This document shows positions 5,157-25,977 of a stretch of DNA of 33,219 bases, piece after piece. A model generated the notes under the pieces. It ran no database searches and was not told where the DNA came from. It was given only the letters and a program-made list of their open reading frames with translations. The position numbers and the translations under genes were made by a program. This DNA comes from a bacterium. Lineage in GTDB: Bacteria > Desulfobacterota > Binatia > UBA12015. Each line of letters begins with the position of its first letter. The first letter of the stretch is position 1. The stretch is from contig JAUIFY010000028.1 of the NCBI GenBank assembly GCA_030430245.1, forward strand, positions 1 to 33,219, given 5' to 3'.

Positions 5157-6479
5157 TCAGACGTCGCGGAAGTCGCGAACCTCGGCGGCGCCGTCGGCGA
5201 CCTTCCGCAGCGCACGAGCACACTCTCGGACGTACTCCGGCGGCACGCTCGCGAATCCCGGCAGGGACACCAGGCGCGTGACCAGCTTGCGCGTGTTCGG
5301 CAGCTCGGGCGCGGGATTCTTGCGGAAGTTCTCGAGCGCCACACCCATGACTCCGCCCAGCTCGCTCGTGTCCATCGTCTGGAACATCGGCGAGTCGGGA
5401 AGAAGGCCCCAGCGCTGTCCGAACTGCGTGTAGCGGTCGACGCTCAAGGGAACGCCCTCGGCCTTCGCCGCCTGCACGAACGCCTCACGCGACCAATCGG
5501 CGCACTCCTTCGGATCGTACTTCAAGATGTAGTTGAGGAACCCGCCCCGCTCGGCCTCCTCATAGGTCGCGACCGGCTGGATGCCCCGACAACCCGCGAG
5601 CTCTTCCTCGAGGATCTGGTAGTTGCGACGCCGCAGCTCGTTCAGCCGCGGCAGCCGCTCGAGCCCTCCCGCGGCGAGCAGAATCGCGTAGACGTGCGGC
5701 CGGTACTTGAGCCCGAAGCTCACGTTGTCGAGCTCCTCGAACGTGCCGGCGCGCTGTTGCTTTCCCGTGCGTCCATTGTGCCCGAGAGCGAGCATGCGGT
5801 CGTAGAGAACGGGATCGTCGGTCGTTGCGACGCCGCACTCGCCGCCCGAGACCGCCTTCGCGCCCTGGAGGCTGAAGCAACCGATGTCGCCCCACGACCC
5901 GACGGGTCGACCGGCGTACGAAGCGCCCGGTGCGTGCGAGCAGTCCTCGATCAGCGCGACGCGATGCCGCCGGGCGATGTCGAGGAAGGCGTCCATCTTG
6001 CCGGGATTGCCCCAGACGTGGACGACGCAAATGGCCTTCGTGCGCGGCGTAATGAGCCGCTCCACGTGCTCGGGGTCGGCGATCAGCGTGTCCTCGTCGA
6101 CGTCGCAGAACACGGGCGTCGCACCCGTCTGAAGGATCGGCGTCGTCGACGCGAAGAACGTGTACGCGGGCACGATGACCTCGTCCCCCGGCCGACACCC
6201 TACGGCGAAGTAGGCGCTGTGCAGCGTGGACGTCCCGCTGTTCATGGCGAGGCCGTACTTGGTTCCGACCATCTCGGCCCAGTCCTTCTCGAACTTGCCC
6301 TGCGCACCCTTCCCGTCCGAGATCGTGTTCACGTCCCGAAAGCCGCTGTAGAGGATGCTCGCGATGTCCTTGAAGGTGACCTTGCGCCACTTCTCCTTGG
6401 GCCGCTTCGTCGTGACGGCCTTCTTGCCGCCAAAGATCGCCAGCTTCCCGTTCCCGCCGATGACCGCCGCGTCACTCAT
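5157..6479 (-). CDS. DegT/DnrJ/EryC1-type sugar aminotransferase
   Basis: A 440-residue PLP-dependent enzyme of the fold-type I DegT/DnrJ/EryC1/StrS family, which transfers an amino group to keto-sugars in surface polysaccharide or glycosylated product pathways. Visible elements are the NSGTSTLH phosphate-binding stretch (80-87), VIVPAYTFFASTTPIL (101-115), the cofactor-ring aspartate in IEDCSHAPG (Asp179), and the Schiff-base lysine in SLQGAKAVSGGECG (Lys208). The length is 50-70 residues above the family norm, partly from an N-terminal extension resembling the CHAP-like leader of AHBA-synthase-type relatives. Its ATG overlaps the stop of the upstream oxidoreductase by 4 bp (ATGA), indicating translational coupling. 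Together with that oxidoreductase it could convert a sugar to a ketone and then an amine. The sugar is unknown. Confidence 0.95.
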   Translation of the reverse strand: MSDAAVIGGNGKLAIFGGKKAVTTKRPKEKWRKVTFKDIASILYSGFRDVNTISDGKGAQGKFEKDWAEMVGTKYGLAMNSGTSTLHSAYFAVGCRPGDEVIVPAYTFFASTTPILQTGATPVFCDVDEDTLIADPEHVERLITPRTKAICVVHVWGNPGKMDAFLDIARRHRVALIEDCSHAPGASYAGRPVGSWGDIGCFSLQGAKAVSGGECGVATTDDPVLYDRMLALGHNGRTGKQQRAGTFEELDNVSFGLKYRPHVYAILLAAGGLERLPRLNELRRRNYQILEEELAGCRGIQPVATYEEAERGGFLNYILKYDPKECADWSREAFVQAAKAEGVPLSVDRYTQFGQRWGLLPDSPMFQTMDTSELGGVMGVALENFRKNPAPELPNTRKLVTRLVSLPGFASVPPEYVRECARALRKVADGAAEVRDFRDV

Positions 6480-7648
6480 CCTGCCTGCCTCCCGCTGATT
6501 GCCGTCAGGTTCTGTGCGCTCTCGGTCGTGCGAGCGCGGGACCGGTAGTCCTCGGCGGTGACGCCGGAGTAGTAGGTTGCCGACGCGTCGAGCGGGAACG
6601 CCACAGACTCACCCGTGATCGCCGACGTGTAGATGCCGGTCGCGAGCTCGACCGCGTGGCGAGCCGACTCGGGTCCGATCGGCAGCGGTTGCTCCATGTC
6701 CAGCGCTTTCAGAATCGCCTCGAAGTACGGGCGATGGCTGCCGCCGTCGCCCTTCTGCTTGGTCGGACGTCCGAGCTTCTGCTTGATCTTGTCGCCGCCC
6801 TTCGTGACGACCTTGGTCGCCAGCGTCTGCAGTCGCGCGAGACCGCTGCCGCCTCCGTCGTCGTCGCTCTTCGACGCGTAGCGGTGGACTTTCTTGGTCC
6901 CGACCACGTCGAACATCACGCCGGACTTGCCGACGCCCGTGGACGAGCTGCACGAGACGATCGCACCGCTCTTGAACCGAATCGTGGCGGCGAACGTGTC
7001 CTCGGACTCGATGTCGAGATGCACCGTATCCATCGTCGCGGTCACGGTCGCCGGCTCGCCGTACACGAGGCACATCAGGTCGAGCTCGTGCACGAACTGG
7101 GTCATCACGGTGCCGCCGCCGGACATCTTCCAGCTCCCCCAGTTCTTGGCGTTCTGGACGAAGGCCCCGCGAGCGGTCCGGTTGAACGTCCCGCCGACCA
7201 GCTGGCCGAGCGACTCGTCGTCCTTGAGGCGCATGAGCTTCTCGACGTCCGTCGCGTAGCGGCGCTGGAAGATCGTCGAGAGCTTCCCGGGGTACTGCTT
7301 CGCGAACTCGATGAGGTCGTCGACCTCCGCGAGGGTCGGAGCGAGCGGCTTCTCGCTGATCACGTGCTTCCCCGCCTGAAGCGCGTCCTTCACGATCCGA
7401 GCGTGCACGCCGGGGGGAGTGCAGATGTCGATGATGTCGATGTCGGGACGCGCGAGAAGCTCGCGATAGTCCGTCGTCGACACGGGCAGGAAGTGTTTCT
7501 GCCCCGCCTGCCGCAAGCGAAGCTCATCCGTGTCGGAGATGCCGACGATGCGGAATCGCTTCGAGAGATACTTGTACGCTTGAAGATGCGAAGGGAAGAT
7601 CGCCCCCGCACCCACGACGCCCACACCGAACTTCCTGCTCATGCTCAT
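6476..7648 (-). CDS. Gfo/Idh/MocA-family oxidoreductase
   Basis: A 390-residue NAD(P)-dependent sugar dehydrogenase. The Rossmann motif GVVGAGAIFPSH is at the N-terminus, ICTPPGVHA follows the second strand, and the conserved EKP (VISEKPLAPT) carries the catalytic lysine near residue 96. The C-terminal half is the family beta-sheet domain. A stretch rich in lysine and glycine around residues 255-300 looks like an inserted flexible loop. ATG 7648 follows GGAG closely; ATG 7642 (MSRKFG) is equally likely. It is translationally coupled to the downstream aminotransferase (4-bp overlap) and lies 36 bp after the sulfotransferase gene, so the three are probably one operon. Oxidation of a nucleotide sugar ahead of transamination is the expected role, by analogy with 3-amino-sugar pathways. 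Confidence 0.94.
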   Translation of the reverse strand: MSMSRKFGVGVVGAGAIFPSHLQAYKYLSKRFRIVGISDTDELRLRQAGQKHFLPVSTTDYRELLARPDIDIIDICTPPGVHARIVKDALQAGKHVISEKPLAPTLAEVDDLIEFAKQYPGKLSTIFQRRYATDVEKLMRLKDDESLGQLVGGTFNRTARGAFVQNAKNWGSWKMSGGGTVMTQFVHELDLMCLVYGEPATVTATMDTVHLDIESEDTFAATIRFKSGAIVSCSSSTGVGKSGVMFDVVGTKKVHRYASKSDDDGGGSGLARLQTLATKVVTKGGDKIKQKLGRPTKQKGDGGSHRPYFEAILKALDMEQPLPIGPESARHAVELATGIYTSAITGESVAFPLDASATYYSGVTAEDYRSRARTTESAQNLTAISGRQAG

Positions 7649-7684
7649 CCTACTCCGGTTTCGCCGGGCGGCGGGCCGCCCCGT

Positions 7685-8554
7685 TCATCCGCGCAGCCGT
7701 GCGCTCACGCGGCCGAGCTTCTTTCCGACCTTCTCGGCCGTTGCGCGCCCCGACCGAACGAACGTCTCGATGCGCCCGGGACGGTGCACAGGCTCCGCGG
7801 CCAGGTCCCGCCAGATCCCCGAGGGCGACAGCCACTCGGGGAACCATCGATCCATGTCCTCTCCGCAGAAGCGCTCGAACGACGCACGCTGCGTGCTCGT
7901 CCAACGGGTCCAGTAGCTGACCGGCTGACGTGCCGTGTTCAGCTGCTCGACCACGACGTTCCCCTCGCTCGAGAGCCCGAGGAATCTCTGCAGCCGGGGG
8001 ATCGCCGACGTGAGCCGGTCCAAACGAACCTTCGTCTGCAACGACTCGTCGAGCGTGGAGAGCTGATCCTCGATGAGGTGATTGTACTTGCTCCAGCACC
8101 AACAGCACTTCTCGAAGCGCGTGAGCGCGTTCCACTCCTCGGTCGAGAAGTCGCCGGTGCGATCGCCGTGCAGCCGCGCGCGACGCCACATGATGCCCTG
8201 CCGCGGATACACCTCGTCGTACCAGCCCCGGTAGTACATCGACGCGACCGAGTCGCGTCCGTCGCGGATCAGCCAGATGTACTGCGCCTCGGGAAAGACG
8301 TCGCGCAGGATCGGGAACAGCAGCGTATGCTGCAGGTTCACCTCCCCGTACACCTTGCCGTCGACCGTCGGCTCACGAGTCTCGCGCAGGATCTGCGCGA
8401 GCTCGTCTCGAGCGTATTCGCCGACGTGGAACGCGGTCGCCTCGGCCGCGAGCTCGGGCTGCGGATGATGCAGGCAGACCGTGCCCGGAATCTGGTTGAG
8501 GGCGGTCGCAATGGTCCGGCTGCCGGCCCGCCCGGTGCTCAAGACAAAATACAT
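7685..8554 (-). CDS. PAPS-type sulfotransferase domain protein
   Basis: A 289-residue protein with the P-loop-like nucleotide site of sulfotransferases at the extreme N-terminus (LSTGRAGSRTIA, 5'-phosphosulfate loop, residues 5-16). A second site is in YIWLIRDGRDSVASMYY (about 92-108), which matches the 3'-phosphate-binding RDxRDxxxS pattern. A tryptophan- and cysteine-rich middle (CCWCWSKYN) follows. These enzymes move sulfate from PAPS to a hydroxyl or amine of a sugar, lipid or small molecule. Starting directly at the strand leading into the loop is typical of bacterial forms, so ATG 8554 is secure. First gene of the minus-strand unit with the oxidoreductase and aminotransferase, it suggests a sulfated amino-sugar on the cell surface, which is inference. 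Confidence 0.9.
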   Translation of the reverse strand: MYFVLSTGRAGSRTIATALNQIPGTVCLHHPQPELAAEATAFHVGEYARDELAQILRETREPTVDGKVYGEVNLQHTLLFPILRDVFPEAQYIWLIRDGRDSVASMYYRGWYDEVYPRQGIMWRRARLHGDRTGDFSTEEWNALTRFEKCCWCWSKYNHLIEDQLSTLDESLQTKVRLDRLTSAIPRLQRFLGLSSEGNVVVEQLNTARQPVSYWTRWTSTQRASFERFCGEDMDRWFPEWLSPSGIWRDLAAEPVHRPGRIETFVRSGRATAEKVGKKLGRVSARLRG

Positions 8555-8563
8555 CGCCTAGAT

Positions 8564-8599
8564 GTGTCCGAAAACGAGACACGCGGGTGCAAACCCGCG
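8564..8599 (-). other. Two leader hairpins before the sulfotransferase gene
   Basis: A 7-bp stem (CGCGGGT/ACCCGCG, 8582-8599) with a four-base loop is followed by a 5-bp stem (GTGTC/GACAC, 8564-8582), immediately upstream of the sulfotransferase ATG. On the minus strand the first stem is followed by TGTCTCGTTTT. It could be a weak terminator for the upstream secreted-protein gene or part of a structured leader. Confidence 0.4.
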
Positions 8600-8635
8600 C
8601 AAAGAGAAGGGAAAGGGAAAGAGGTCGTTCGTGGG

Positions 8636-8664
8636 AATATCGGTATTGAAGGCGTGATCCTCAA
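8636..8664 (-). promoter_or_regulatory. Candidate sigma-70 promoter for the sulfotransferase operon
   Basis: On the minus strand TTGAGG (8664-8659) and GATATT (8641-8636) are 17 bp apart, giving 4/6 matches to each consensus box. It lies about 80 bp ahead of the sulfotransferase ATG and after the stop of the preceding gene, in a locally AT-richer patch. Confidence 0.45.
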
Positions 8665-8725
8665 GCAAGCGAGGACGGGTCGACATTACGCCCGAACGCC
8701 TCACCTCGGGCAAGAGAGAAATCCG

Positions 8726-9760
8726 TCACCACTCGACCACGAGGTCGTCCCAGGCGACGTGTGCGCCCTCGCGCGACGCCCCTCCGAACCAGGCCACCCC
8801 CAGGCCCACGTAGCCGGGTTCGAGGGGTCGCCCCAGGGGCTCGACGAGCCGCTCGACCGGAAAGCTTCGCTCATGGCGGCCCCCTTCGGAGGCGTCGTCC
8901 GGCACGATCGGTACGAACCTCCCCTTCTCGAGCCGCCGCACGGAGTAGCGGTACTCGGCCTCGGAGCGCTCGATTGCGATCCGATACCAGCCGGCGGGGA
9001 ACGCCTTACCCTCTCCCCGGACGCTGTAGGGGAGGAAGGAGACGTCGACGAGATCGTTCGGACGATCGCCGGGCCGCTCGACGCGCGCCGGCACCTCTAC
9101 GGCAAACCCGATGCTTCCCCCGCGGATCGGCGAGTCGGCGTCGCCCGGCTCCCCGAAGGCACCGCCGATCACGCCGTACCAGCGATAGCGATCCGGCCCA
9201 TCGCCCTCCGCCGTCGCCGTATCGGCAACGCCCGCGCAATCCCGCGGGCAGGTGGTCTCCGTGAGAGTCAGACCGTGCATCACCAGGTAGTGCTCGCCGG
9301 CGCCTCCCACGGGCACATCCTCGGGGACGTGCAGGTCGACGCGCATCCTGCCGGTCGGGCCGGACTGCTTCTGGCGCGTCGTCAGAACCTCGAGCACGCC
9401 GCGATTCGCCGTTCCGAACGGACCCCCCGGCTCGAACTCCGCGAACCGGTGGATCGCCACCGCGTCGTCCTCGCAGCCGGCGTCTCCGGCACACGATGGG
9501 GCACCGTGCTCGGCGCTCGGGGCGCCCGTCCACGCGAAGGACCCCGGCTCCCCACACGCCCCGGCGATGATGCGCCGAACGAACGTGCGCTGCCCGCTTC
9601 GACAGGTCGCGGCGTCGTCATCCGACCAGTCCCGATCGAAGGTCTCGTGAAGATCGAGCGCCACCGCGGTGCCTCCCCAGAGCATCAGGATCGCGAGCGC
9701 CAGCCACGCCGGAATGCGAGGATGTTTCCCCACGCGTCTTCGATTACGCATCTCTCCCAT
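8726..9760 (-). CDS. Secreted protein of unknown function
   Basis: A 344-residue exported protein. A basic N-terminus (MRNRRRVGKH) and a hydrophobic core (WLALAILMLWGG) end in TAVA-LDL, a good signal peptidase I site around residue 35. The mature part is cysteine-rich (CRSG, GACGE, SCAGDAGCED, CPRDCAG), and the end (GYVGLGVAWFGGAS...VAWDDLVVEW) resembles the last strands of a concanavalin/LamG-like jelly roll, suggesting a carbohydrate-binding or surface role. I recognise no named family. ATG 9760 sets the signal peptide correctly; the frame upstream to 9871 would run into the integrase gene. The integrated element begins only about 12 bp before this start, so the original upstream promoter has been displaced. 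Confidence 0.75.
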   Translation of the reverse strand: MGEMRNRRRVGKHPRIPAWLALAILMLWGGTAVALDLHETFDRDWSDDDAATCRSGQRTFVRRIIAGACGEPGSFAWTGAPSAEHGAPSCAGDAGCEDDAVAIHRFAEFEPGGPFGTANRGVLEVLTTRQKQSGPTGRMRVDLHVPEDVPVGGAGEHYLVMHGLTLTETTCPRDCAGVADTATAEGDGPDRYRWYGVIGGAFGEPGDADSPIRGGSIGFAVEVPARVERPGDRPNDLVDVSFLPYSVRGEGKAFPAGWYRIAIERSEAEYRYSVRRLEKGRFVPIVPDDASEGGRHERSFPVERLVEPLGRPLEPGYVGLGVAWFGGASREGAHVAWDDLVVEW

Positions 9761-9839: not shown

Positions 9840-10928
9840 TCAGACTCGCGAAGCCCCTCCGCGCAGGGCAACTGCTCGGGCAGCTTCCTCCATCTCCGAC
9901 TCCGTCGTGTGCGCGTACCGGTTCAGCATCTCGAGCGAGGAGTGTCCGAGTAGATCGCGTGCGACGGCGAGGCTCGTGCCGTTGCGAACCACCACCGATC
10001 CGAAGGAGTGCCGCAGGGTGTGCGGCTTCACATCGTGGAGTCCAGCCGCATCGCAGGCAACGCGAACGAGCTGGTTCATGCGCTCTGGCAGGCCCGAGAA
10101 CCACCGTTCGTCCCGAAGGGGTCGCGGTAGGCGCTTCAGCTCAGCAAGCCCCTCAGGGCCAATGAAGCGCGTCTGGGGCCTGTTCGCTTTCGTGTCTGCG
10201 AGATGCACGCGCCCGGTGGAGAGATCGACCGCGCTCGGCCGAAGCGCGAGAACCTCGCCACGGCGCATTCCCGAGCTGAGCGCGATCATGACGAACGCCC
10301 GCACATGCTGGCGCGTAAAGTGCTTCGACCGGACCTCCATCCGGTCAATCTCGACGAGAAGCCGGTCGAGCTCCTCGCCTGTAACGACCCGGGTCCGCTT
10401 TGCTGACCTCGGAGTCTTGTCGAATCCTCCAAGCGGGTTCTTTCGAGCGAGACCGCGCTTTACCGCCCGGGTCACGACGGCCCGCGCCGTCTGAATCTCG
10501 ATAGCAACGGTCGCGTTGGCGGCTCCCCCGTCCTGCCGACGCTCGACGTAGTCCTCGAGATCGTTTGTTGTGAGCTGGTCGAGCAGCACATCTCCGAATG
10601 CGGGCAGAAGATGCTTCATCGCGCTGCGACGAATCCGAACGGTCGACGGTTTGCGATGCTTCTCGGCCCACGCCAGCCACGCCTTGGCCGCGCCTCGGAA
10701 CGTGCGGTCCGTATCCAGCGCGTCTCCGAACGCCGCCGCGACCGCGAGGGGATCCTTCTCGACGAGCGCGACCTCGACGTTCCGGCAGATCACGTCGGCC
10801 GTCTTCTTCAGGTCGGCCGCCGCACGCTTGTGAACCTTGCCGTCGAGACCGGTGTATCGGATCCAGTAGCGGACCCGCTTGCGGCCGTCCTTGCCCTGCC
10901 GTCGTTCGTACACTCGTGGTCGTGCCAT
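9840..10928 (-). CDS. int: Tyrosine recombinase/integrase
   Basis: A 362-residue phage-type integrase that would integrate and excise the element. The N-terminal basic arm-binding region (1-35, MARPRVYERRQGKDGRKRVRYW) is followed by a SAM-like core-binding domain (about 75-165) and the catalytic domain. Catalytic residues are Arg222 (SSGMRRGEV), Lys247 in the beta hairpin, His303 and Arg306 (HTLRHSFG), His329 (LLGHSS) and the nucleophile Tyr338 (NRYAHT). ATG 10928 lies 1 bp after the stop of the zinc-finger gene, so the two are cotranscribed; the frame extends upstream to 11144, but that overlaps the partner and lacks family features. The stop at 9840 is directly beside the left GGGTACC pair. 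Transcription from here points towards the flanking secreted-protein gene. Confidence 0.96.
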   Translation of the reverse strand: MARPRVYERRQGKDGRKRVRYWIRYTGLDGKVHKRAAADLKKTADVICRNVEVALVEKDPLAVAAAFGDALDTDRTFRGAAKAWLAWAEKHRKPSTVRIRRSAMKHLLPAFGDVLLDQLTTNDLEDYVERRQDGGAANATVAIEIQTARAVVTRAVKRGLARKNPLGGFDKTPRSAKRTRVVTGEELDRLLVEIDRMEVRSKHFTRQHVRAFVMIALSSGMRRGEVLALRPSAVDLSTGRVHLADTKANRPQTRFIGPEGLAELKRLPRPLRDERWFSGLPERMNQLVRVACDAAGLHDVKPHTLRHSFGSVVVRNGTSLAVARDLLGHSSLEMLNRYAHTTESEMEEAARAVALRGGASRV

Positions 10929-10929
10929 C

Positions 10930-11613
10930 TTAGACCCCCTTCCGCTGCTTCTCTTCGCGTCGCTTCTTCTCGTCGCGGTATTTCTTCGCGGCGATCCGGT
11001 TCTGCTCTCTTCGTTCGGGCTTCGTCTTGCGCTTGGCGTCGTGAAACACCTGGGTGCATCGCAGTGAGCACCGCTCTTGCCGCCCCCTCTTCGCCCAGAT
11101 GCGGCCACATACCGGGCACCTTCTGAACACGAACCTTTCCCCAACCGTCAGAATCTCCAGCAGGGCGCGCGTGTGCCATTCTTTGCCAGCCAGCTTGTCT
11201 ATGCCTCCCGGCCGTACCTCTCCCCCGACAACCATGACCGTTCGGCTGTCGTCGATGTTGGGCAGCCATACCGGGTGCCTCTCACCGTGCGTCACGAGCT
11301 CCAAGATCACCTCGCGGGCGACAACTGAGGCCCTCCGCAGGATCCCCTGAAACATCGTGGCCCTGACCTGCTCGTCGAGGGTCGCGATGAAGTCGGCGGC
11401 GGTTAGCTCTCCCGGCCGGGCCGCCCGCTCCCGAAGTGGCGCAAGTCCTGGCTCGTGCATCAGCGTCCGCCGACACGCCTCGAGGTATCGAACCCGAAGG
11501 GTCTCACGTGCCGGCCTACCCAGGCGTCCCGTCGGCCCAACTTGGTCTAGCTCAGTTGCCAGAGCAGCCCACCAGTCCGCCCAGGCTCTCCTGGGCTTCG
11601 TACCGTCATCCAC
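10930..11613 (-). CDS. Zinc-finger protein cotranscribed with the integrase
   Basis: A 227-residue protein with a helical N-terminal region (1-160) of no recognised family and a zinc-binding module, C166-P-V-C169-G with C182-x3-C186. This resembles the CGNR-type finger (CPVCGRxW...RxxxCSxxC). A strongly basic lysine/arginine tail (190-227) follows, likely for nucleic-acid contact. The start is GTG 11613, placed by the promoter whose -10 ends at 11620; transcription would begin at this GTG, implying leaderless translation. An ATG at 11609 is out of frame. It ends 1 bp before the integrase ATG, so it is the first gene of an integrase operon and may control integration, excision or element expression. 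Its role is inferred from position only. Confidence 0.8.
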   Translation of the reverse strand: MDDGTKPRRAWADWWAALATELDQVGPTGRLGRPARETLRVRYLEACRRTLMHEPGLAPLRERAARPGELTAADFIATLDEQVRATMFQGILRRASVVAREVILELVTHGERHPVWLPNIDDSRTVMVVGGEVRPGGIDKLAGKEWHTRALLEILTVGERFVFRRCPVCGRIWAKRGRQERCSLRCTQVFHDAKRKTKPERREQNRIAAKKYRDEKKRREEKQRKGV

Positions 11614-11904: not shown

Positions 11905-12127
11905 GCGGAAGGTCGCGTACCGGGTCGCAGAGCTCGCACACGCGGTCGGGCTCTCCGAGCGATTCCTCCGCGAAGAGATTTCGAGCGGCCGCTTGCGGGC
12001 ACGTCACGTAGGACGCGCAGTGGTCGTCACCGCCGACGACCTCGACCGATGGCTCGAGGCGCAGCCCGAAGTGTGCCCAGCGCAGCGAGAGGCCACGTCG
12101 CCTCGAGCGGAAGCGCGTGCGGGATAG
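11894..12127 (+). CDS. Excisionase-like HTH protein 2
   Basis: A 77-residue protein with a second HTH_17-type domain (YRVAELAHAVGLSERFLREEISSGRLRARH, then VVVTADDLDRWLEAQ, roughly residues 9-55) and a short charged tail. It starts inside the end of the first HTH gene (11-bp overlap), and its TAG shares one base with the GTG of the primase gene, so the three are translationally coupled. The paired small HTH genes are related in fold but not close in sequence. One may be the excisionase that works with the integrase, the other a promoter regulator; the sequence does not say which. Confidence 0.85.
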   Translation: MAAERKVAYRVAELAHAVGLSERFLREEISSGRLRARHVGRAVVVTADDLDRWLEAQPEVCPAQREATSPRAEARAG

Positions 12128-13272
12128 TGGCTGCACTCCCAGACACATGGCGGAGCCACGGCCGTCCGTCGCTGGCGGATAGGGCTAGGGCGGTCAAGGG
12201 TGCGATCTCTCCCGATACCCTAGGCTTGGAGAAACTCCGCGAGAAGCGCCCTGGCGAGTGGATGGCGCGATGCCCCGCGCACGACGACAATAGTCCGTCG
12301 CTGTCGATTCGGCGCAAAGGCGACGGCCTCGCCTTCAAGTGCTTCGCCTGCGGCTTCAGTGGGACTGAGCTGGACGTGATCGCCGCCCTCAACGGCATCG
12401 GCTCCCTGCGCGGCCAAGACTTCGCTCAGGTCGTGGAGCTCGCGGAGAAGATCGCGGGCACGAACTCCTCGCCGAGTGTGACGAGTGGGACGAAGACGGC
12501 AGATCCGCCATGGCGCGACAAGGATGCCGCGACGCTCGAACGCTTCATCGACATGCTGGTGGTCTGGACGGATCGCGACGAGCGAGACCGTCACTTGTCA
12601 CGCTGGGGCCTGCGCGGTGAGGACGCGGGCGAGGACGTGCTCCTGATGCCTCGCGACGAGTACGACCACACAAACCGGCCGCTGCAATTCAGCTTCTTCT
12701 GCGCGGTGTGCGACGAGGTGAGCGTCGAAGCCTTGAACCGCTCGGGGATCGCGTCGGAGGAGCCACCGAGGTTTCTCTACACGGAACACCTTCTAACCAC
12801 GGTTTGGCGCACCCCAGACGGCCAGCCCTACAACCTTCGGCGGCGCATCCTGCGCGAGCTTAACCAAGGGGAGAAAACCCCCCGGTACGTGGTCCTCTCA
12901 AATGGCCACATCGGGCAACGACCATCCTGGCCCTTCGGTGTACACCGCTTGAAGGAGAAGCCTGACACCCCGGTCGCGATTGCCGAAGGGGCGCTTGACG
13001 CCCTCGCTGTCGAGGCGATCGCCCGCGACCAAGGCAATGAGATCCTCGGGCTAGGGCTTCCGTCCGCGTCCGACTGGAAACCTGAGTGGGCACGACTCCT
13101 CAAGGGGCGCGAGGTTCTCGTCGCGACCGACGACGACGACGCGGGCAGATCGGCGGCGAATCGAATCCGTAACGACCTCGAGCGCATTGGGGTGGAGTGG
13201 GAGCGAGCGACCCCGGTCGGCGAGGGTGATTGGGCGGACGCGCTCGTTCGGATGCGCGGCGGGAAACGATGA
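12127..13272 (+). CDS. CHC2 zinc-finger/Toprim DNA primase
   Basis: A 381-residue DnaG-related primase that would make RNA primers for replication of the element. The N-terminal CHC2 zinc finger is Cys49-x2-His52-x19-Cys72-x2-Cys75 (RCPAHDDNSPSLSI...FKCFACGFSG). A central region with no clear match (about 100-270) follows. The Toprim fold has the glutamate in VAIAEGALDALAVEA (about 282-296) and the acidic cluster in VLVATDDDDAGRSA (about 330-345). GTG 12127 is chosen because it overlaps the upstream stop (TAGTG) and gives the normal short leader before the finger; the frame upstream to 12049 runs through the HTH gene. It overlaps the helicase ATG by 4 bp. The DnaB-binding C-terminal domain of cellular DnaG is absent, as usual for satellite primases. 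Confidence 0.93.
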   Translation: MAALPDTWRSHGRPSLADRARAVKGAISPDTLGLEKLREKRPGEWMARCPAHDDNSPSLSIRRKGDGLAFKCFACGFSGTELDVIAALNGIGSLRGQDFAQVVELAEKIAGTNSSPSVTSGTKTADPPWRDKDAATLERFIDMLVVWTDRDERDRHLSRWGLRGEDAGEDVLLMPRDEYDHTNRPLQFSFFCAVCDEVSVEALNRSGIASEEPPRFLYTEHLLTTVWRTPDGQPYNLRRRILRELNQGEKTPRYVVLSNGHIGQRPSWPFGVHRLKEKPDTPVAIAEGALDALAVEAIARDQGNEILGLGLPSASDWKPEWARLLKGREVLVATDDDDAGRSAANRIRNDLERIGVEWERATPVGEGDWADALVRMRGGKR

Positions 13273-14570
13273 TGAAGAACCCCTTAGGCAGCGCCGCAAA
13301 GGTCGCGAAGAAGAAGCCGAAGCTGAAGGCGGTCAAGAATGACAAGTCGGCATCGCCCCCCAAAGCGAGCGACGAGTGGGAGAAGAGCCTTACTCGGAAC
13401 AAGGACGGCTCCATTCGGGCGTCGTCTGGCAACGGGGCTCTCATCCTCGCGAACGCACCCGAGTGGCGCAGGTGTCTTGAATACGACGAGATGCATGAGC
13501 GGCCGGTATTCTCGAAATCACCACCCCCAGTCGCGGGATTCGAGAAGATCCCCAAGCCTGGTCCGGTCAAAGACCACCACACACCGCTTATCGCACAGCG
13601 CCTTGAGCTCGATCACGGCTTCGCGCTCACAGACGCGAACGCTACGTCGGCAGTCCTTGCGGCGTCGCGGCAGTCCCCGTTCCACCCGGTTCGTGACTAC
13701 CTAGACGGACTCGAATGGGACGGGGAGGCTCGGGTGCGGACTTGGCTCATCGACCTCCTAGGGGCGAAAGATACCGCCCTCCACCGTGAGGTCGGGCTCC
13801 GCTGGCTCATCTCGGCGGTGGCGCGGATCTTCAAGCCCGGCTGCAAGGCCGACCACATGCTCGTGTTTGAAGGCCCCCAGGGCATCGGGAAGTCCACAAC
13901 CCTCCGCATCCTCGCGGTCGAGGACGCCTGGTTCCGAGATTCAATCGAGAGCTTCGAGAAGAAGGATGCCCGCATCGCGCTGCGGGGAACGTGGATCGTC
14001 GAAGTCGCCGAATTGGACGCAATGAACTACGCGAGAGCAAGCGCAGCAAAGGCGTTCCTCACGACCACGACGGACCGCTACCGACCCCCATATGGCCGTC
14101 TCGAGCAGGAGGTGCCGAGGCGATGCGTCTTCGCCGGTTCGGTCAATGACCACCAATGGCTGCGTGACGACACCGGCGGGCGTCGCTATTGGCCGGTGGA
14201 GATCCCAGGCCGAATCGACACAGACAAGCTCTCAAGGGTGCGCGACCAACTCTGGGCCGAAGCCGTCCAGCTCTACCGTCAGGACGAACCCTGGCACCTA
14301 GTCGACGAGGACGCGATTCAGGAAGCCAAGACCGCCCAAGAGGCACGGACGGTCACGGACCCGTGGGAGGATCAGATTAGAACCTTCGTCGGGGGCTACA
14401 CCGGCGAGATCGATGAACTCACCACCGCCGCGATCCTCCAGAACCTGGGGATCGAGCCAAGGGACCGGAAGACAAGCTACGCAATGCGCGTCGGAGGCGT
14501 AATGCTGCGCCTGGGGTACCGGAAGAACCGCAAGCACGGGAAGCCGCGCTATTGGGAGCCCGACCAGTGA
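13269..14570 (+). CDS. VapE-type P-loop helicase/replication protein
   Basis: A 433-residue member of the virulence-associated E family, a P-loop ATPase related to superfamily 3 helicases and used as the replication protein of phages and satellites. A lysine-rich, likely disordered leader (1-50) precedes the conserved region starting near FHPVRDYLDGLEWDG (138-152). Walker A is GPQGIGKST (202-210), Walker B is TWIVEVAELD (241-250), and sensor-type residues follow in RCVFAGSVND with the family-typical DTGGRRYWPV. ATG 13269 overlaps the primase stop by 4 bp (a second ATG follows at 13272). The iteron array begins 4 bp after its stop codon, the position expected for the origin such a protein would open. 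Confidence 0.95.
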   Translation: MMKNPLGSAAKVAKKKPKLKAVKNDKSASPPKASDEWEKSLTRNKDGSIRASSGNGALILANAPEWRRCLEYDEMHERPVFSKSPPPVAGFEKIPKPGPVKDHHTPLIAQRLELDHGFALTDANATSAVLAASRQSPFHPVRDYLDGLEWDGEARVRTWLIDLLGAKDTALHREVGLRWLISAVARIFKPGCKADHMLVFEGPQGIGKSTTLRILAVEDAWFRDSIESFEKKDARIALRGTWIVEVAELDAMNYARASAAKAFLTTTTDRYRPPYGRLEQEVPRRCVFAGSVNDHQWLRDDTGGRRYWPVEIPGRIDTDKLSRVRDQLWAEAVQLYRQDEPWHLVDEDAIQEAKTAQEARTVTDPWEDQIRTFVGGYTGEIDELTTAAILQNLGIEPRDRKTSYAMRVGGVMLRLGYRKNRKHGKPRYWEPDQ

Positions 14571-14573
14571 CGC

Positions 14574-14879
14574 GTTCCAACCGTTCCAACCGCGACTCCG
14601 TGGTTGGAACGGGCGGAAACCCATACTGCTCAAGGGCTGCGCCAGCCGTGCCAACCGTACCAACCTGCCCCCACTCCTGCGCATATTTCGCAGCGAGGGA
14701 GAGAGGGCTACCTTGCAGGCAAGCCCTAGCCCTATTCTTAGAAGATTCCCCTCAAGTGGGTTGGTACGGTTGGTACGGTTGGTATGAGCCACGTCTACCA
14801 AGTCGTTTCGCGTTCCAACCTCACCCGAGCAGGTTGGAACAAGGTTGGAACCGCGAGGGGCTGCGGTGAAGATCCAACC
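14574..14879. repeat. Nested inverted 9-bp iteron array, putative replication origin
   Basis: Eleven full or one-off copies of GTNCCAACC, or its reverse GGTTGGNAC, plus one weaker copy at 14871. Outer left block: 14574 and 14583 forward, 14602 reverse (T type, GTTCCAACC). Inner left block: 14648 (GTGCCAACC) and 14657 (GTACCAACC), forward. Inner right block: 14759, 14768 and 14777, reverse (GGTTGGTAC; the last copy is one base off). Outer right block: 14812 forward, 14832 and 14843 reverse (T type). The inner blocks are perfectly complementary over 15 bp (14651-14665 with 14759-14773). They enclose a 93-bp segment with AT-richer patches (GCATATTTCGC, CTATTCTTAGAAGATT) that could be the unwinding site. 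The array follows the helicase gene directly, as in the origins of staphylococcal islands. Confidence 0.7.
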
Positions 14880-16528: not shown

Positions 16529-17788
16529 TTAGTCGCTAAGCACGGCTTCCGTACAGCCCGAATACTGCGTGAACGTCTGCGACCTTCGGTCCCAGAAGTA
16601 GTGAATCGCGCCGGGCGCCCTGCACTCGGCACTCTCGCCGCCAGCCCGCTCGAAAGCAATGTCGGAGCAGCGCAGGAGCGCCATATGCGGCGACTGCGCC
16701 CAGTTGTAAGTCGTGCAGTTCCCTTGCCCGCCATTCACGAACTGAGCGTTCCCCGCGAAAGGAAAGGACGTGCTTCGGGAGGTTTGGAATGTGGTGCGAA
16801 GCTCCAGCACCTCCCCGGCGGTACTGCGGACATACGCCACCGCCTCATGCTCGACGAACGGCTCCACGAGCCCGAGGTTAAACGTGGCCGAAAAACCAGA
16901 CAGGAGAGGCGCTCCGGGGCGCGTAGCCCTGACATCCCCCCGGTCAGAGCAGCACGGGGCAGAAACTGCGTACTCGCCATTGATAAAAATCTCGACCAGC
17001 CGCTTAACCGAAGCCCCTGGCGTCGTCGTGTAGGTCCACCCCTGGAAAGCGATCACCCCGGCCTCTGTACCCTTAGGCCGCTCAAACACGCCCACGAGCC
17101 CACCCACGTGAGGGCTCGCTGTCGGCGTCGGTGTGGCCATCGGCGTTGGGGTTGGCCCAGGCACGCCCGGATAGATCGAATTCACGCCAGCAATGTCATC
17201 GGGCCGTGGGGTTTCAACGCCCGTGAACGGCCCGTTCATGATCGCGACGACGGTCTGCCCGTACTTCGTGGGGTCCTCGAGTCCCAGGACGAACCCGAGA
17301 AGATAAACCAGCTCCCGCCTGAGATCGCGGTCGCAGTCAAAGCCGACCACGCCAGGGCATCGGGGGTTCTCCCCTGAGAAGACGGCCCAAGCATCCAAGA
17401 AAGACGGCTCCTCAGGGAGGACCAGATCGAACTCAACCAGAGCTCCGGTTGTCGGGTTCTGACGGAAGATTGCCCCCTCGTTGCAGCTTCCGTTGAGTGA
17501 GAACTTCTCCCAGCCGACCGTGCTGATGCCGTCCTGGTGGTCGCACGCATCCGCTCCGTTGACGGGGGAGAACTCAAACCGGAACGTGCTCGCGACTGAA
17601 TTCCACTCCCCCGCCGCCGCTACGACCACCTGGTTGAACTCGTTTCCAAGCTGGAGGTTGAGAGTAGCCGTTGCATCTTCCCAGAAGACCGGCCCCGCAT
17701 CCCCCTGAAGCCGCCCGAAACCCAAAGCCGTCGCCGCAACGCCCAAGAGCGCCAGCGCGGCGAAGGTGGCGACACAGATCCTCCCCAT
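16529..17788 (-). CDS. Secreted matrixin-like pseudo-protease with Ig-like C-terminal domain
   Basis: A 419-residue exported protein. The signal peptide is about residues 1-24 (CVATFAALALLGVAATALG). The next domain (about 30-207) looks like a matrixin/metzincin: an N-terminal W-strand-AAAGEWNS pattern, a helix ending LLGFVLGLEDP, a Met-turn region around Met184, and the closing DDIAGVNSIYPG. Yet the zinc site HExxHxxGxxH is replaced (Tyr162, Leu163, Phe166, Asp172), so it cannot bind zinc in the usual way. A Pro/Thr linker (207-226) leads to a second domain with GVFERP, IAFQGWTY, a CCSDRGDV segment and SGFSATFNLGL, resembling small bacterial Ig-like 'GWxxD' domains. A binding or decoy role outside the cell is plausible. 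It is the cargo gene at the right end of the element. Confidence 0.75.
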   Translation of the reverse strand: MGRICVATFAALALLGVAATALGFGRLQGDAGPVFWEDATATLNLQLGNEFNQVVVAAAGEWNSVASTFRFEFSPVNGADACDHQDGISTVGWEKFSLNGSCNEGAIFRQNPTTGALVEFDLVLPEEPSFLDAWAVFSGENPRCPGVVGFDCDRDLRRELVYLLGFVLGLEDPTKYGQTVVAIMNGPFTGVETPRPDDIAGVNSIYPGVPGPTPTPMATPTPTASPHVGGLVGVFERPKGTEAGVIAFQGWTYTTTPGASVKRLVEIFINGEYAVSAPCCSDRGDVRATRPGAPLLSGFSATFNLGLVEPFVEHEAVAYVRSTAGEVLELRTTFQTSRSTSFPFAGNAQFVNGGQGNCTTYNWAQSPHMALLRCSDIAFERAGGESAECRAPGAIHYFWDRRSQTFTQYSGCTEAVLSD

Positions 17789-17966: not shown

Positions 17967-18025
17967 ACATGCAGGCCCCCGCACCCGTGTGCACCCCGGT
18001 GCCGCCACCCGTATGCATCTCTTCC

Positions 18026-19471
18026 ATGAATGCACGCTCGCGTCGTCGGATCGCGGTCCTCGTCCTCGCCGGCCTCCTCGCCCTGGGCTCCGGCCCGGCG
18101 GGTGCCAGCACGAAGCTCACCACTCTGAGCGACGCCACCGAGGATCTCGTCGCTCAGGTTCAGCCCGGCGTCGTGCAGGTTCTCGCCACGGGCTACGGCC
18201 CGGGCGGGCCGGGCGGGCCCGGGCCGCTGGCGTCCGCCTCCACCGGCAGCCTCCTCACGACGCAACGGTCGACCGGCTCGGGCGTGATCATCGATCCCGA
18301 CGGCTACATCGTCACGAACGCCCACGTGATCGGCGGCGCGCAGAAGGTGCACGTCGTCCTGCCCCACGAGAAGAAGCGCAACGGCCAGAAGCGATCGATC
18401 GTCCGGCCGCGGGGACAGCAGGTGGAAGCGGAGGTCGTCGGACTCGACCGCGAAACCGACCTCGCCGTCCTGAAGGTCGACCGCACCGGACTTCCCGCCG
18501 TCGAGATCGGCGACTCGGACGATCTCCGCACCGGCGAGATCGTGCTCGCGATCGGCAGCCCGATGGGGCTCGGGGGATCCGTTTCTCTCGGCGTCGTGAG
18601 CGCCCTCGGCCGTCAGCGCGGGCCCGAGGATCCGATGGTCTTCATCCAGACCGACGCGCCCATCAACCCGGGCCACAGCGGCGGCGCGCTCGTCGACACG
18701 GAAGGTCGCCTGGTCGGGATCAACACGTTCATCCTCTCGCACTCGGGCGGGAGCGAAGGGATTGGCTTCGCCGCACCGAGCAACATCGTCGAGGCCGTCT
18801 ACGTTCAGCTCAAGGAGAACGGACGGGTGCGCCGCGGCAACATCGGCGCCTTTCCGCAGACGATCACGCCGCTCCTCGCCGAGGCGCTCTCCCTGGAGCG
18901 CGACCGGGGCGTCGTCCTCGGAGACGTCGAGCCGAACGGCCCCGCCGAGGCCGCGGGTCTCGAGATCGGGGACATCGTGCTCAAGCTGAACGGCAAGCCG
19001 ATGGAGAACGGTCGTCAGCTCGAGGTGAACGTCTATCAGTACGCTCCCGGGGAAGTGATCGAGCTCGAGATCGAGCGCGATGGAAAGCAGTCGACCGAGT
19101 ACGTCGCGGTGCGCGAGCGCGAGGGCGAACCCGAGCGCATCGCCGAGATGGTCCGTCCCGAGAAGAACCTCGTGCCCGGCCTGGGCATTCTCGGAATCGA
19201 GATCGACAGCGAGGTTTCGAAGCACCTGCCACCACTCCGGATTCCCCGGGGCGTCGCCGTCGCGGGTCGAGCGGCGGACGGACCTCTCTACGAGATGCCG
19301 CTCCTTCCCGGCGACGTGATCATCTCGATCGACGGCACCGACATCGTGACTCTCGAGCAGCTGCGCGAAGAGATCGAGAAGCTTCCCGGCGGAGAGGCCT
19401 CCGTCCTGCAGGTGCAACGCGGGAACGGGCTGGTCTTCGTCGCCTTCGAAGCCAAGCGCAAGCCGCGGTAG
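18026..19471 (+). CDS. HtrA/DegP-type periplasmic serine protease
   Basis: A 481-residue S1C protease for periplasmic protein quality control. The signal peptide is about residues 1-27 (RIAVLVLAGLLALG...AGA-S). A Gly/Pro-rich loop (57-68) precedes the trypsin-like domain with His100 (IVTNAHVIGG), Asp145 (DRETDLAVLKVD) and Ser218 in PINPGHSGGAL; the family usually has GNSGG here, so His217 is a mild variation. Two PDZ domains follow (about 265-365, with GVVLGDVEPNGPAEAAGLEIGD, and about 395-475, with LYEMPLLPGDVIISIDG). ATG 18026 sets the signal peptide; the frame upstream to 17801 crosses the element end and is rejected. It is 16 bp short of being adjacent to nothing else: the next gene, a lipoprotein, starts 114 bp downstream on the same strand. 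Confidence 0.95.
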   Translation: MNARSRRRIAVLVLAGLLALGSGPAGASTKLTTLSDATEDLVAQVQPGVVQVLATGYGPGGPGGPGPLASASTGSLLTTQRSTGSGVIIDPDGYIVTNAHVIGGAQKVHVVLPHEKKRNGQKRSIVRPRGQQVEAEVVGLDRETDLAVLKVDRTGLPAVEIGDSDDLRTGEIVLAIGSPMGLGGSVSLGVVSALGRQRGPEDPMVFIQTDAPINPGHSGGALVDTEGRLVGINTFILSHSGGSEGIGFAAPSNIVEAVYVQLKENGRVRRGNIGAFPQTITPLLAEALSLERDRGVVLGDVEPNGPAEAAGLEIGDIVLKLNGKPMENGRQLEVNVYQYAPGEVIELEIERDGKQSTEYVAVREREGEPERIAEMVRPEKNLVPGLGILGIEIDSEVSKHLPPLRIPRGVAVAGRAADGPLYEMPLLPGDVIISIDGTDIVTLEQLREEIEKLPGGEASVLQVQRGNGLVFVAFEAKRKPR

Positions 19472-24780: not shown

Positions 24781-25977
24781 CTACGAGACCGGCGGGATCG
24801 CGCGGATCGCGCGCGCAATCCCGCGCAGGTCCTCGTCGTCGAGTCCCGGCACGGGGGCGTCGCGGCGAAGCGCCGTGACCAGCTCTTCTTCGGACGCCTC
24901 GACCGGCGCCGCCCACACCAGAGTCGTGCGGATGGCGACGTCGATGCGGTCGATCGCTGGACGGAGATCGTCGGCGAGACTCGGTAGGACGGCCGGATCC
25001 ATTGCGGACGGCTGCGAGAGCACGGCGCGCTGCACCGCCTTCGCCGCCGCGAACTCCGCCCGCACCAGCGCCAGGTACGCATCGGGGTCGAGGCCCGCGC
25101 GCGCGGCCGCATCCCGTGCCTTCTCCCGAATCGCCGTCTCACGGTCGGGCGCGTCGACGGGCAGGCCGCGGGCGCGCTTCACCTCCGCGACGAGCGGCAT
25201 CAACATCAGCCGCTGCCCGAGATGGTCGATCAGCGTCGCCTCGTCGATCGGGAGATCCGGCCGCTGAGGATCGTCGAGCCACACGCTCCGCTCGGTCTCG
25301 AGCCAGCGGTTGGCACCGCGCGTGCCGATCCACTGGTTCATGTCGAGGACCAGCTCCGGGCGCTTCGGTGAAACCCAATACGCCTTCCGATCGCGCGCGA
25401 GCACCTCGGCGACCTCGGTGTCGAAGTCGAAGCTCTTCGCCTCGAGCGTATCCGTCACCACGGCGTGTGCGCGTCCGCCCGCGAGTAGGTCCGGAAGGCT
25501 CCGATTGTCGTCGACGGCCCGGATCGTCGCCTCCTCGAAGCGATCACGAGCGAGCCGCTCGAGATGCCCACCGCGATTCACGACGATCACGACACCGCGG
25601 CGATCGAGATCCTCGGTGCTGCGGCCCTTCCGCACGAGGACGATCGCATCGGCCCGGGCCACCGACGCGGTCATCGGCGCGCGCGCCAACCGGTCGCCCC
25701 GCACGGTGACGCCGCTCATCGCGACGTCGAACTCCCCCGCGAGGAGCCGCGGCTCGAGATCCGGCCAATCGAACGGGACGATCTCGACGGTCAGGCCGCG
25801 ATCGCGCGCGTACGCATGGGCGACCGAGATGTCGAAGCCGTGGCGGGAGCCTCCCTCCTCGACGACCGAGAACGGCGGGTAGTCGCCGCTGGTGCCGACC
25901 CGGAGAGCCGGCCGCGCGCTGCAGCTCGCGACGAGGAGCAGCGCGGTCGCCATCAGGTACCGGATCCGCCGGCGCAT
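24781..25977 (-). CDS. Secreted fusion of cyclohexadienyl dehydratase and chorismate mutase
   Basis: A 398-residue exported lipoprotein. The lipobox is LVASC (Cys19). Residues 24-232 form a periplasmic-binding-protein-like domain of the cyclohexadienyl dehydratase (PheC) type: RVGTSGDYPPFSV, GFDISVAHAYA, FDWPDL...FDVAMSGVTVRGDRLARAP, VVVNRGGHLE (for NPGGTNE) and VVTDTLEA. Residues 239-395 form a type II chorismate mutase of the secreted AroQ-gamma kind. The spacing of Arg239, Arg256, Lys267, Arg279, Glu280 and Gln316 closely follows Arg11, Arg28, Lys39, Arg51, Glu52 and Gln88 of the E. coli enzyme. Together they could turn chorismate through prephenate into phenylpyruvate outside the cytoplasm. 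ATG 25977 gives the lipoprotein signal. The fusion is the unusual point. Confidence 0.85.
   Translation of the reverse strand: MRRRIRYLMATALLLVASCSARPALRVGTSGDYPPFSVVEEGGSRHGFDISVAHAYARDRGLTVEIVPFDWPDLEPRLLAGEFDVAMSGVTVRGDRLARAPMTASVARADAIVLVRKGRSTEDLDRRGVVIVVNRGGHLERLARDRFEEATIRAVDDNRSLPDLLAGGRAHAVVTDTLEAKSFDFDTEVAEVLARDRKAYWVSPKRPELVLDMNQWIGTRGANRWLETERSVWLDDPQRPDLPIDEATLIDHLGQRLMLMPLVAEVKRARGLPVDAPDRETAIREKARDAAARAGLDPDAYLALVRAEFAAAKAVQRAVLSQPSAMDPAVLPSLADDLRPAIDRIDVAIRTTLVWAAPVEASEEELVTALRRDAPVPGLDDEDLRGIARAIRAIPPVS

Follow-up and report, generated by a model that had tools for sequence, protein, structure and literature searches.

Directly 3′ of a gene for a VapE-family helicase, short repeats form a nested, inverted array, and the question that this locus raises is what such an arrangement is for and which protein reads it. 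The window (the whole stretch of DNA analysed, 33,219 nucleotides) is one entire contig of a draft genome of 6.34 Mb. We consider it very probable that the array is a SaPI/PICI-type replication origin of an integrative element of about 8.3 kb, and that it is read by VapE.

The integrative element and its iteron array

In G001, a genome of the same genus, the sequences corresponding to window positions 6325-9647 and 18090-19465 lie only about 210 bp apart (an empty site), and the 8.3-kb insertion found here is flanked by 13-bp imperfect repeats, the probable att cores. Because the insertion is bounded by GCATCTCTCCCAT and GCATCTCTTCCAT, the array is assigned to an integrative element with the following features:

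9748..9760, plus strand: probable left att core GCATCTCTCCCAT, insertion boundary (empty site in G001)
9840..11144, minus strand: tyrosine integrase of the element (its true start is maybe downstream of the ORF start)
12049..13272, plus strand: DnaG-type primase with CHC2 zinc finger and Toprim domain (domain matches)
13230..14570, plus strand: VapE-family helicase of 446 aa (Pfam PF05272, E 3e-82)
18015..18027, plus strand: probable right att core GCATCTCTTCCAT, insertion boundary relative to G001

VapE was absent from all 38 related genomes searched. The element has the PICI whole-element traits of an integrase, att sites, small size, and lack of a complete phage morphogenesis set. Searches against Pfam, PHROG, and NCBIfam recognized no phage structural genes in the element and no satellite master regulator (Stl/Rpr or AlpA) among its ORFs. 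Because no regulator was found, the element is not classed as a PICI; it may be decayed. A 227-aa ORF (10930-11613, minus strand), which overlaps the integrase start, carries a zinc-finger-like end (CPVCGRIW...CSLRC) and has no family match, could be the element's regulator. At the right end, a 419-aa secreted-type ORF (16529-17788, minus strand; no match in Pfam, PHROG, or NCBIfam) is a possible cargo gene.

The first iteron lies 4 bp past the vapE stop codon. The 9-bp word GTNCCAACC occurs in ten exact copies within 14574-14851 and once elsewhere in the 33-kb window (at 25308), compared with a mean of 0.54 and a maximum of 4 in the shuffled window. With W at position 3, nine copies are present, all nine of them inside the array (0.15 expected). 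A one-mismatch copy (14777-14785) and a degenerate copy (14639-14647) complete the set, which is arranged as follows:

14574..14610, both orientations: outer left block, GTTCCAACC at 14574-14582 and 14583-14591, inverted copy at 14602-14610
14639..14665, plus strand: inner left block, 9-bp tandem of degenerate GCGCCAGCC (14639-14647), GTGCCAACC (14648-14656), and GTACCAACC (14657-14665)
14666..14758, no strand: interior of 93 bp, 57% GC, the proposed strand-opening site by inference
14759..14785, minus strand: inner right block in reverse orientation, GTACCAACC at 14759-14767 and 14768-14776, ATACCAACC at 14777-14785
14812..14851, both orientations: outer right block, GTTCCAACC at 14812-14820, inverted copies at 14832-14840 and 14843-14851

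Written with '<' for GTNCCAACC on the plus strand and '>' for its reverse complement, and with the two degenerate copies included, the plan from 5′ to 3′ reads << >, <<<, 93 bp, >>>, < >>. Around a dyad centre at 14712, the six left sites reflect onto the six right sites (2 of the 12 being degenerate), with mirror offsets of 1, -1, -2, 0, 0, and 0 bp. Furthermore, positions 14651-14665 and 14768-14782 form a perfect 15-bp inverted match. The interior is AT-richer rather than AT-rich, its GC content of 57% comparing with 63% in vapE and 68% in the whole window.

The initial annotation, made from the letters alone, had counted eleven copies of the motif, which is correct if one-mismatch copies count (the ten exact ones plus 14777-14785). 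Its distinction of T-type outer from A/G-type inner blocks agrees with outer sites that are all GTTCCAACC and inner sites of GTACCAACC or GTGCCAACC, its 15-bp complementarity and AT-richer 93-bp interior are exact, and the symmetry that it described is stronger than claimed, as the dyad offsets are 2 bp at most. The span that it proposed (14574-14879) extends beyond the last clear copy, which stops at 14851, to take in a weak match near 14872.

In 56 of 58 relatives, one plus-strand frame stays open over the array span; it is disrupted by some indels, and where the open frames end varies between relatives. Coding repeats, whose presence the initial annotation would have counted against an origin, were rejected because substitutions show no codon periodicity, falling on the three codon positions as 1241/1343/1388 in the array versus 1058/777/3535 in vapE. 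The inverted repeats may alternatively act as RNA, for example as an attenuator, a terminator, or a leader structure ending the replication operon. The plus-strand RNA does fold far better than shuffled sequences (z -8.65), which is expected anyway because any set of inverted repeats would produce such a fold. An RNA element was nevertheless rejected, as the array has no Rfam match and no terminator-like site was found within it. What is conserved (tandem direct copies, site order, and a shared word) goes beyond mere pairing, and the word changes along with a wing of the DNA-binding type, so that a role as RNA is exceedingly improbable.

The layout beside related vapE genes

VapE relatives were taken from genomes and viral contigs, with named hosts that were mostly Acetobacteraceae. 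The nested site order is kept directly 3′ of vapE in these relatives, and the word differs by clade (among others GTCCCAAC, GTCCAACC, GTCCTACC, GTCCCACC, and TGACGCA...). A word-blind detector, which looks for a tandem pair and then an inverted tandem pair 55-150 bp further on, responded in 52 of 99 vapE loci versus 2 of 1825 control windows from the same loci when exact 7-mers were required, and in 80 of 99 loci versus 8 of 500 control windows when one mismatch was allowed, although the locus counts are not independent because many loci are close relatives. Conserved copies beside related vapE genes, which the initial annotation had proposed as a check, are thus present. It had also held relatives lacking the array to speak against an origin. 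Among the 19 detector misses, at least five (L007, L005, L062, L102, and L105; L036 duplicates the L007 stretch) have a clear array that is shifted downstream, by about 2 kb at most, and a few have no array or a weak one (L029, L087, L101, L103/L104, and L107).

The layout is also found outside the prophages. A DNA search led to Hamiltonella phage APSE-7, in which the array again lies 3′ of the VapE gene (the flank of the match includes part of a toxin gene, and the comparison was confined to the vapE end plus the intergenic region). Like APSE-7, Marinobacter phage PS3, Corynebacterium phage Dina, the Streptococcus mitis satellite Javan325, a Paenibacillus phage, and a Bacteroides phage carry arrays after VapE-type genes, and plasmid-borne arrays occur on pGO128, pKNA06, p1318-5, p1318-6, and an Apilactobacillus phage-plasmid. 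In the VapE phages P2559Y, ep3, and Ln-9, an array was not found within the stretch examined. A search of viral contigs by word alone gave 37 loci, of which 11 have vapE alongside. Tandem GTTCCAACC or GTACCAACC arrays were observed on four viral contigs (L130, L138, L140, and L152) with VapE not detected in the stretch available, where another initiator may read the same word.

Sites of this kind could also be operators, through which VapE or another protein of the element controls downstream transcription and not replication. Iterons often double as regulatory sites, and a protein reading the word for that purpose would covary with it too. The layout persists, however, on plasmids, phages, and satellites despite their different downstream genes, as well as when it is displaced by an inserted gene, and no promoter-like sequence was found in the array region (a weak test). 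Moreover, the same site order is present in the origin of EcCICFT073, which was shown to drive replication (PMC6092414). We therefore regard operators as a very unlikely explanation and favour the replication origin.

The repeat word and the helicase C-terminus

If the array is an origin read by VapE, the part of the helicase that would do the reading is suggested by structure prediction. In a confident AlphaFold2 model of VapE (mean pLDDT 86.7), residues 378-446 follow winged-helix order, with predicted helices at 378-388, 399-405, and 415-427 (the last being the predicted recognition helix) and strands at 430-433 and 441-444 within a predicted wing at 430-444. The closest solved structure found by Foldseek is 7pds, SaPI PriRep1 with dsDNA (E 2.5e-30, TM 0.68), which is also matched by the VapE sequence profile (E 4.7e-90). 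By homology, VapE is a predicted self-loading initiator helicase of the VapE/D5 type.

The covariation of word and protein was analysed in 46 distinct Acetobacteraceae-type VapE proteins of five word classes. Nearest neighbours by residues 409-446 (the recognition region, with the predicted recognition helix and wing) agree in word in 46 of 46 cases, those by residues 376-408 in 38 of 46, and those by the core (47-375) in 31.8 of 46. With the core held constant, the word correlates with the recognition region at a partial r of 0.69 (reached in 0 of 2000 permutations); with the recognition region held constant, the partial correlation between word and core is 0.02. Thirteen of the 14 alignment columns with an adjusted mutual information of at least 0.5 fall within VapE 409-446. 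The L017 and L044 proteins, whose cores are 98.8% identical and whose recognition regions are 47% identical, have different words. The comparison of motif and helicase C-terminus put forward in the initial annotation thus yields a word that follows residues 409-446, and the candidate origin with its staphylococcal-island parallel gains support from this covariation and from the vapE-adjacent copies.

Such covariation could be a by-product if the vapE 3′ end and its flanks moved together as one recombination module and something other than VapE, such as a partition or packaging protein, bound the repeats. Indeed, the word is followed almost as closely by the interior (43 of 46) and the downstream DNA (42 of 45) as by the C-terminus, and joint recombination explains part of the covariation because the VapE C-terminus and the array are adjacent. 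In the word switch from GTCCAACC to GTCCTACC (class C to class D; L037, L038, and L040), however, iterons and wing residues change, while the interior and downstream DNA stay C-like. The new base is found in 9 of 11 sites, the other two being GTCCAACC and GTCCGACC, and the last 60 VapE residues differ consistently from those of L044, L048, and L013 by wing T to A, wing T/A to N, and Y to H. An intermediate is provided by L013, which has GTCCTACC in two sites of the inner left block, the old word elsewhere, and the old protein; its mixed array looks like a word switch under way. This switch is the cleanest case against mere linkage, the word having changed without an exchange of flanks. In addition, none of the five annotated genes of plasmid pGO128, which has VapE and an array, is recognized as a partition or packaging gene. 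Taken together, a mere by-product seems highly doubtful. The VapE C-terminal domain is the predicted iteron reader, with a covariation that is strong but confounded by linkage. Among distant VapE proteins with the window's word GTNCCAACC, the similarity to the recognition residues of the window's VapE is no higher than expected, so that no simple code can be read.

Inner and outer sites carry different words in the window, in APSE-7, and in L150; in the GTCCCAAC class, the difference is at position 9. In APSE-7, L155, and L159, a VapE C-terminus of one kind is accompanied by GTACCAACC or GTAACAACC, be it at inner sites or at outer ones. Two proteins for the two classes were considered and rejected, as inner and outer words interconvert in these three loci with an almost unchanged VapE C-terminus. 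Because the split recurs at changing positions with nearly the same protein, two binding proteins are not required, and we take the classes to reflect tolerance and local drift, with affinities that perhaps differ.

Proposed mechanism and comparison with known origins

In the proposed mechanism, the C-terminal winged helix of VapE would bind the 9-bp iterons. As the sites form two mirror-image half-sites (an outer plus an inner block on each side), two opposed helicase rings are proposed, which would load around the 93-bp interior in opposite polarity, melt it, and then travel apart. The adjoining CHC2/Toprim primase would lay the primers, and the host polymerase would extend them. VapE binding, double-ring assembly, the melting site, and bidirectional replication are thus all steps that we infer.

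In SaPIs, iterons are located directly 3′ of the helicase gene and are reported to be bound by its C-terminal domain, apparently as two hexamers (PMC7581432). Going by the published description, the SaPI rep-ori (SaPIbov1/SaPI1) resembles the present locus in its VapE-fold self-loading helicase, a predicted C-terminal winged helix, and iterons 3′ of the gene; it differs in host lineage, iteron word, and primase (AEP-type (PMC7581432) versus DnaG-type here). The SCCmec helicase Cch2 is likewise self-loading and reads repeats 3′ of its gene through a C-terminal dsDNA-binding domain (PMC7581432), but a 23-bp direct-repeat region with three 5-bp iterons is enough for binding, and no nested symmetry is reported (PMC7581432).

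The nested layout was unfamiliar to the initial annotation, yet it matches the published PICI origin organization (PMC6092414). The experimentally functional origin of the E. coli PICI EcCICFT073 (PMC6092414) has GGTAGA sites in the order of two plus an inverted one, three, two inverted, and one plus two inverted, which is the same nested, opposed order as in the window. It differs in its Rep (D5_N/Pox_D5 type instead of VapE), its interior of about 25 bp, and its word. As this Rep is of the D5 type, the layout spans two helicase subfamilies. The layout has been called unique to PICIs in the PICI literature; the prophages and plasmids that carry it, as judged from their sequences, argue otherwise.

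The Gluconobacter oxydans plasmid pGO128 (4340 bp) presents VapE (40% identity) followed by nested iterons on an autonomous circle, and it differs in a right outer block that is mirrored otherwise, the word AGTGCT, and the lack of a recognized primase gene. Its five annotated genes encode a resolvase, two small proteins, VapE, and an HTH protein, with no other recognized initiator among them, and because of this gene set VapE is the likeliest initiator of pGO128, although the HTH protein could in principle serve instead. In phage P4, the alpha protein is a helicase initiator that binds short repeats (ori and crr), as in the reading proposed here; it differs in that the primase is fused and the repeats are at two separate sites.

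The presence of the layout in prophages, in isolated phages, and on a 4.3-kb plasmid suggests that it is a feature of VapE-type self-loading helicases in general. We consider it rather likely that replicons initiated by VapE (phages, satellites, integrative elements, and plasmids) use a common dyad-symmetric origin plan across several phyla. In this plan, the word would serve as an address that is free to change and is recognized by the final ~40 residues of the helicase, and natural pairs with 98-99% identical cores and different words would be interchangeable, orthogonal origin-initiator sets. The natural word-switch series makes initiator specificity directly testable and offers a route to the origins of VapE phages in which none has been mapped; a literature search found no papers on the origins of Gram-negative VapE phages.

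Individual relatives show further arrangements around the vapE end. L023 has a one-sided array of ten CCTCACC copies in the same direction, mostly at 9-bp spacing, which spans -16 to +76 around the vapE stop codon and thus lies partly inside vapE. In the Acetobacteraceae prophages L009, L011, L018, and L027, a conserved hairpin-like GACGGCGAGCTCCGCCAAGAACCGCGCCGTC lies downstream of the array and ahead of the next gene, at about 370-450 bp past vapE.
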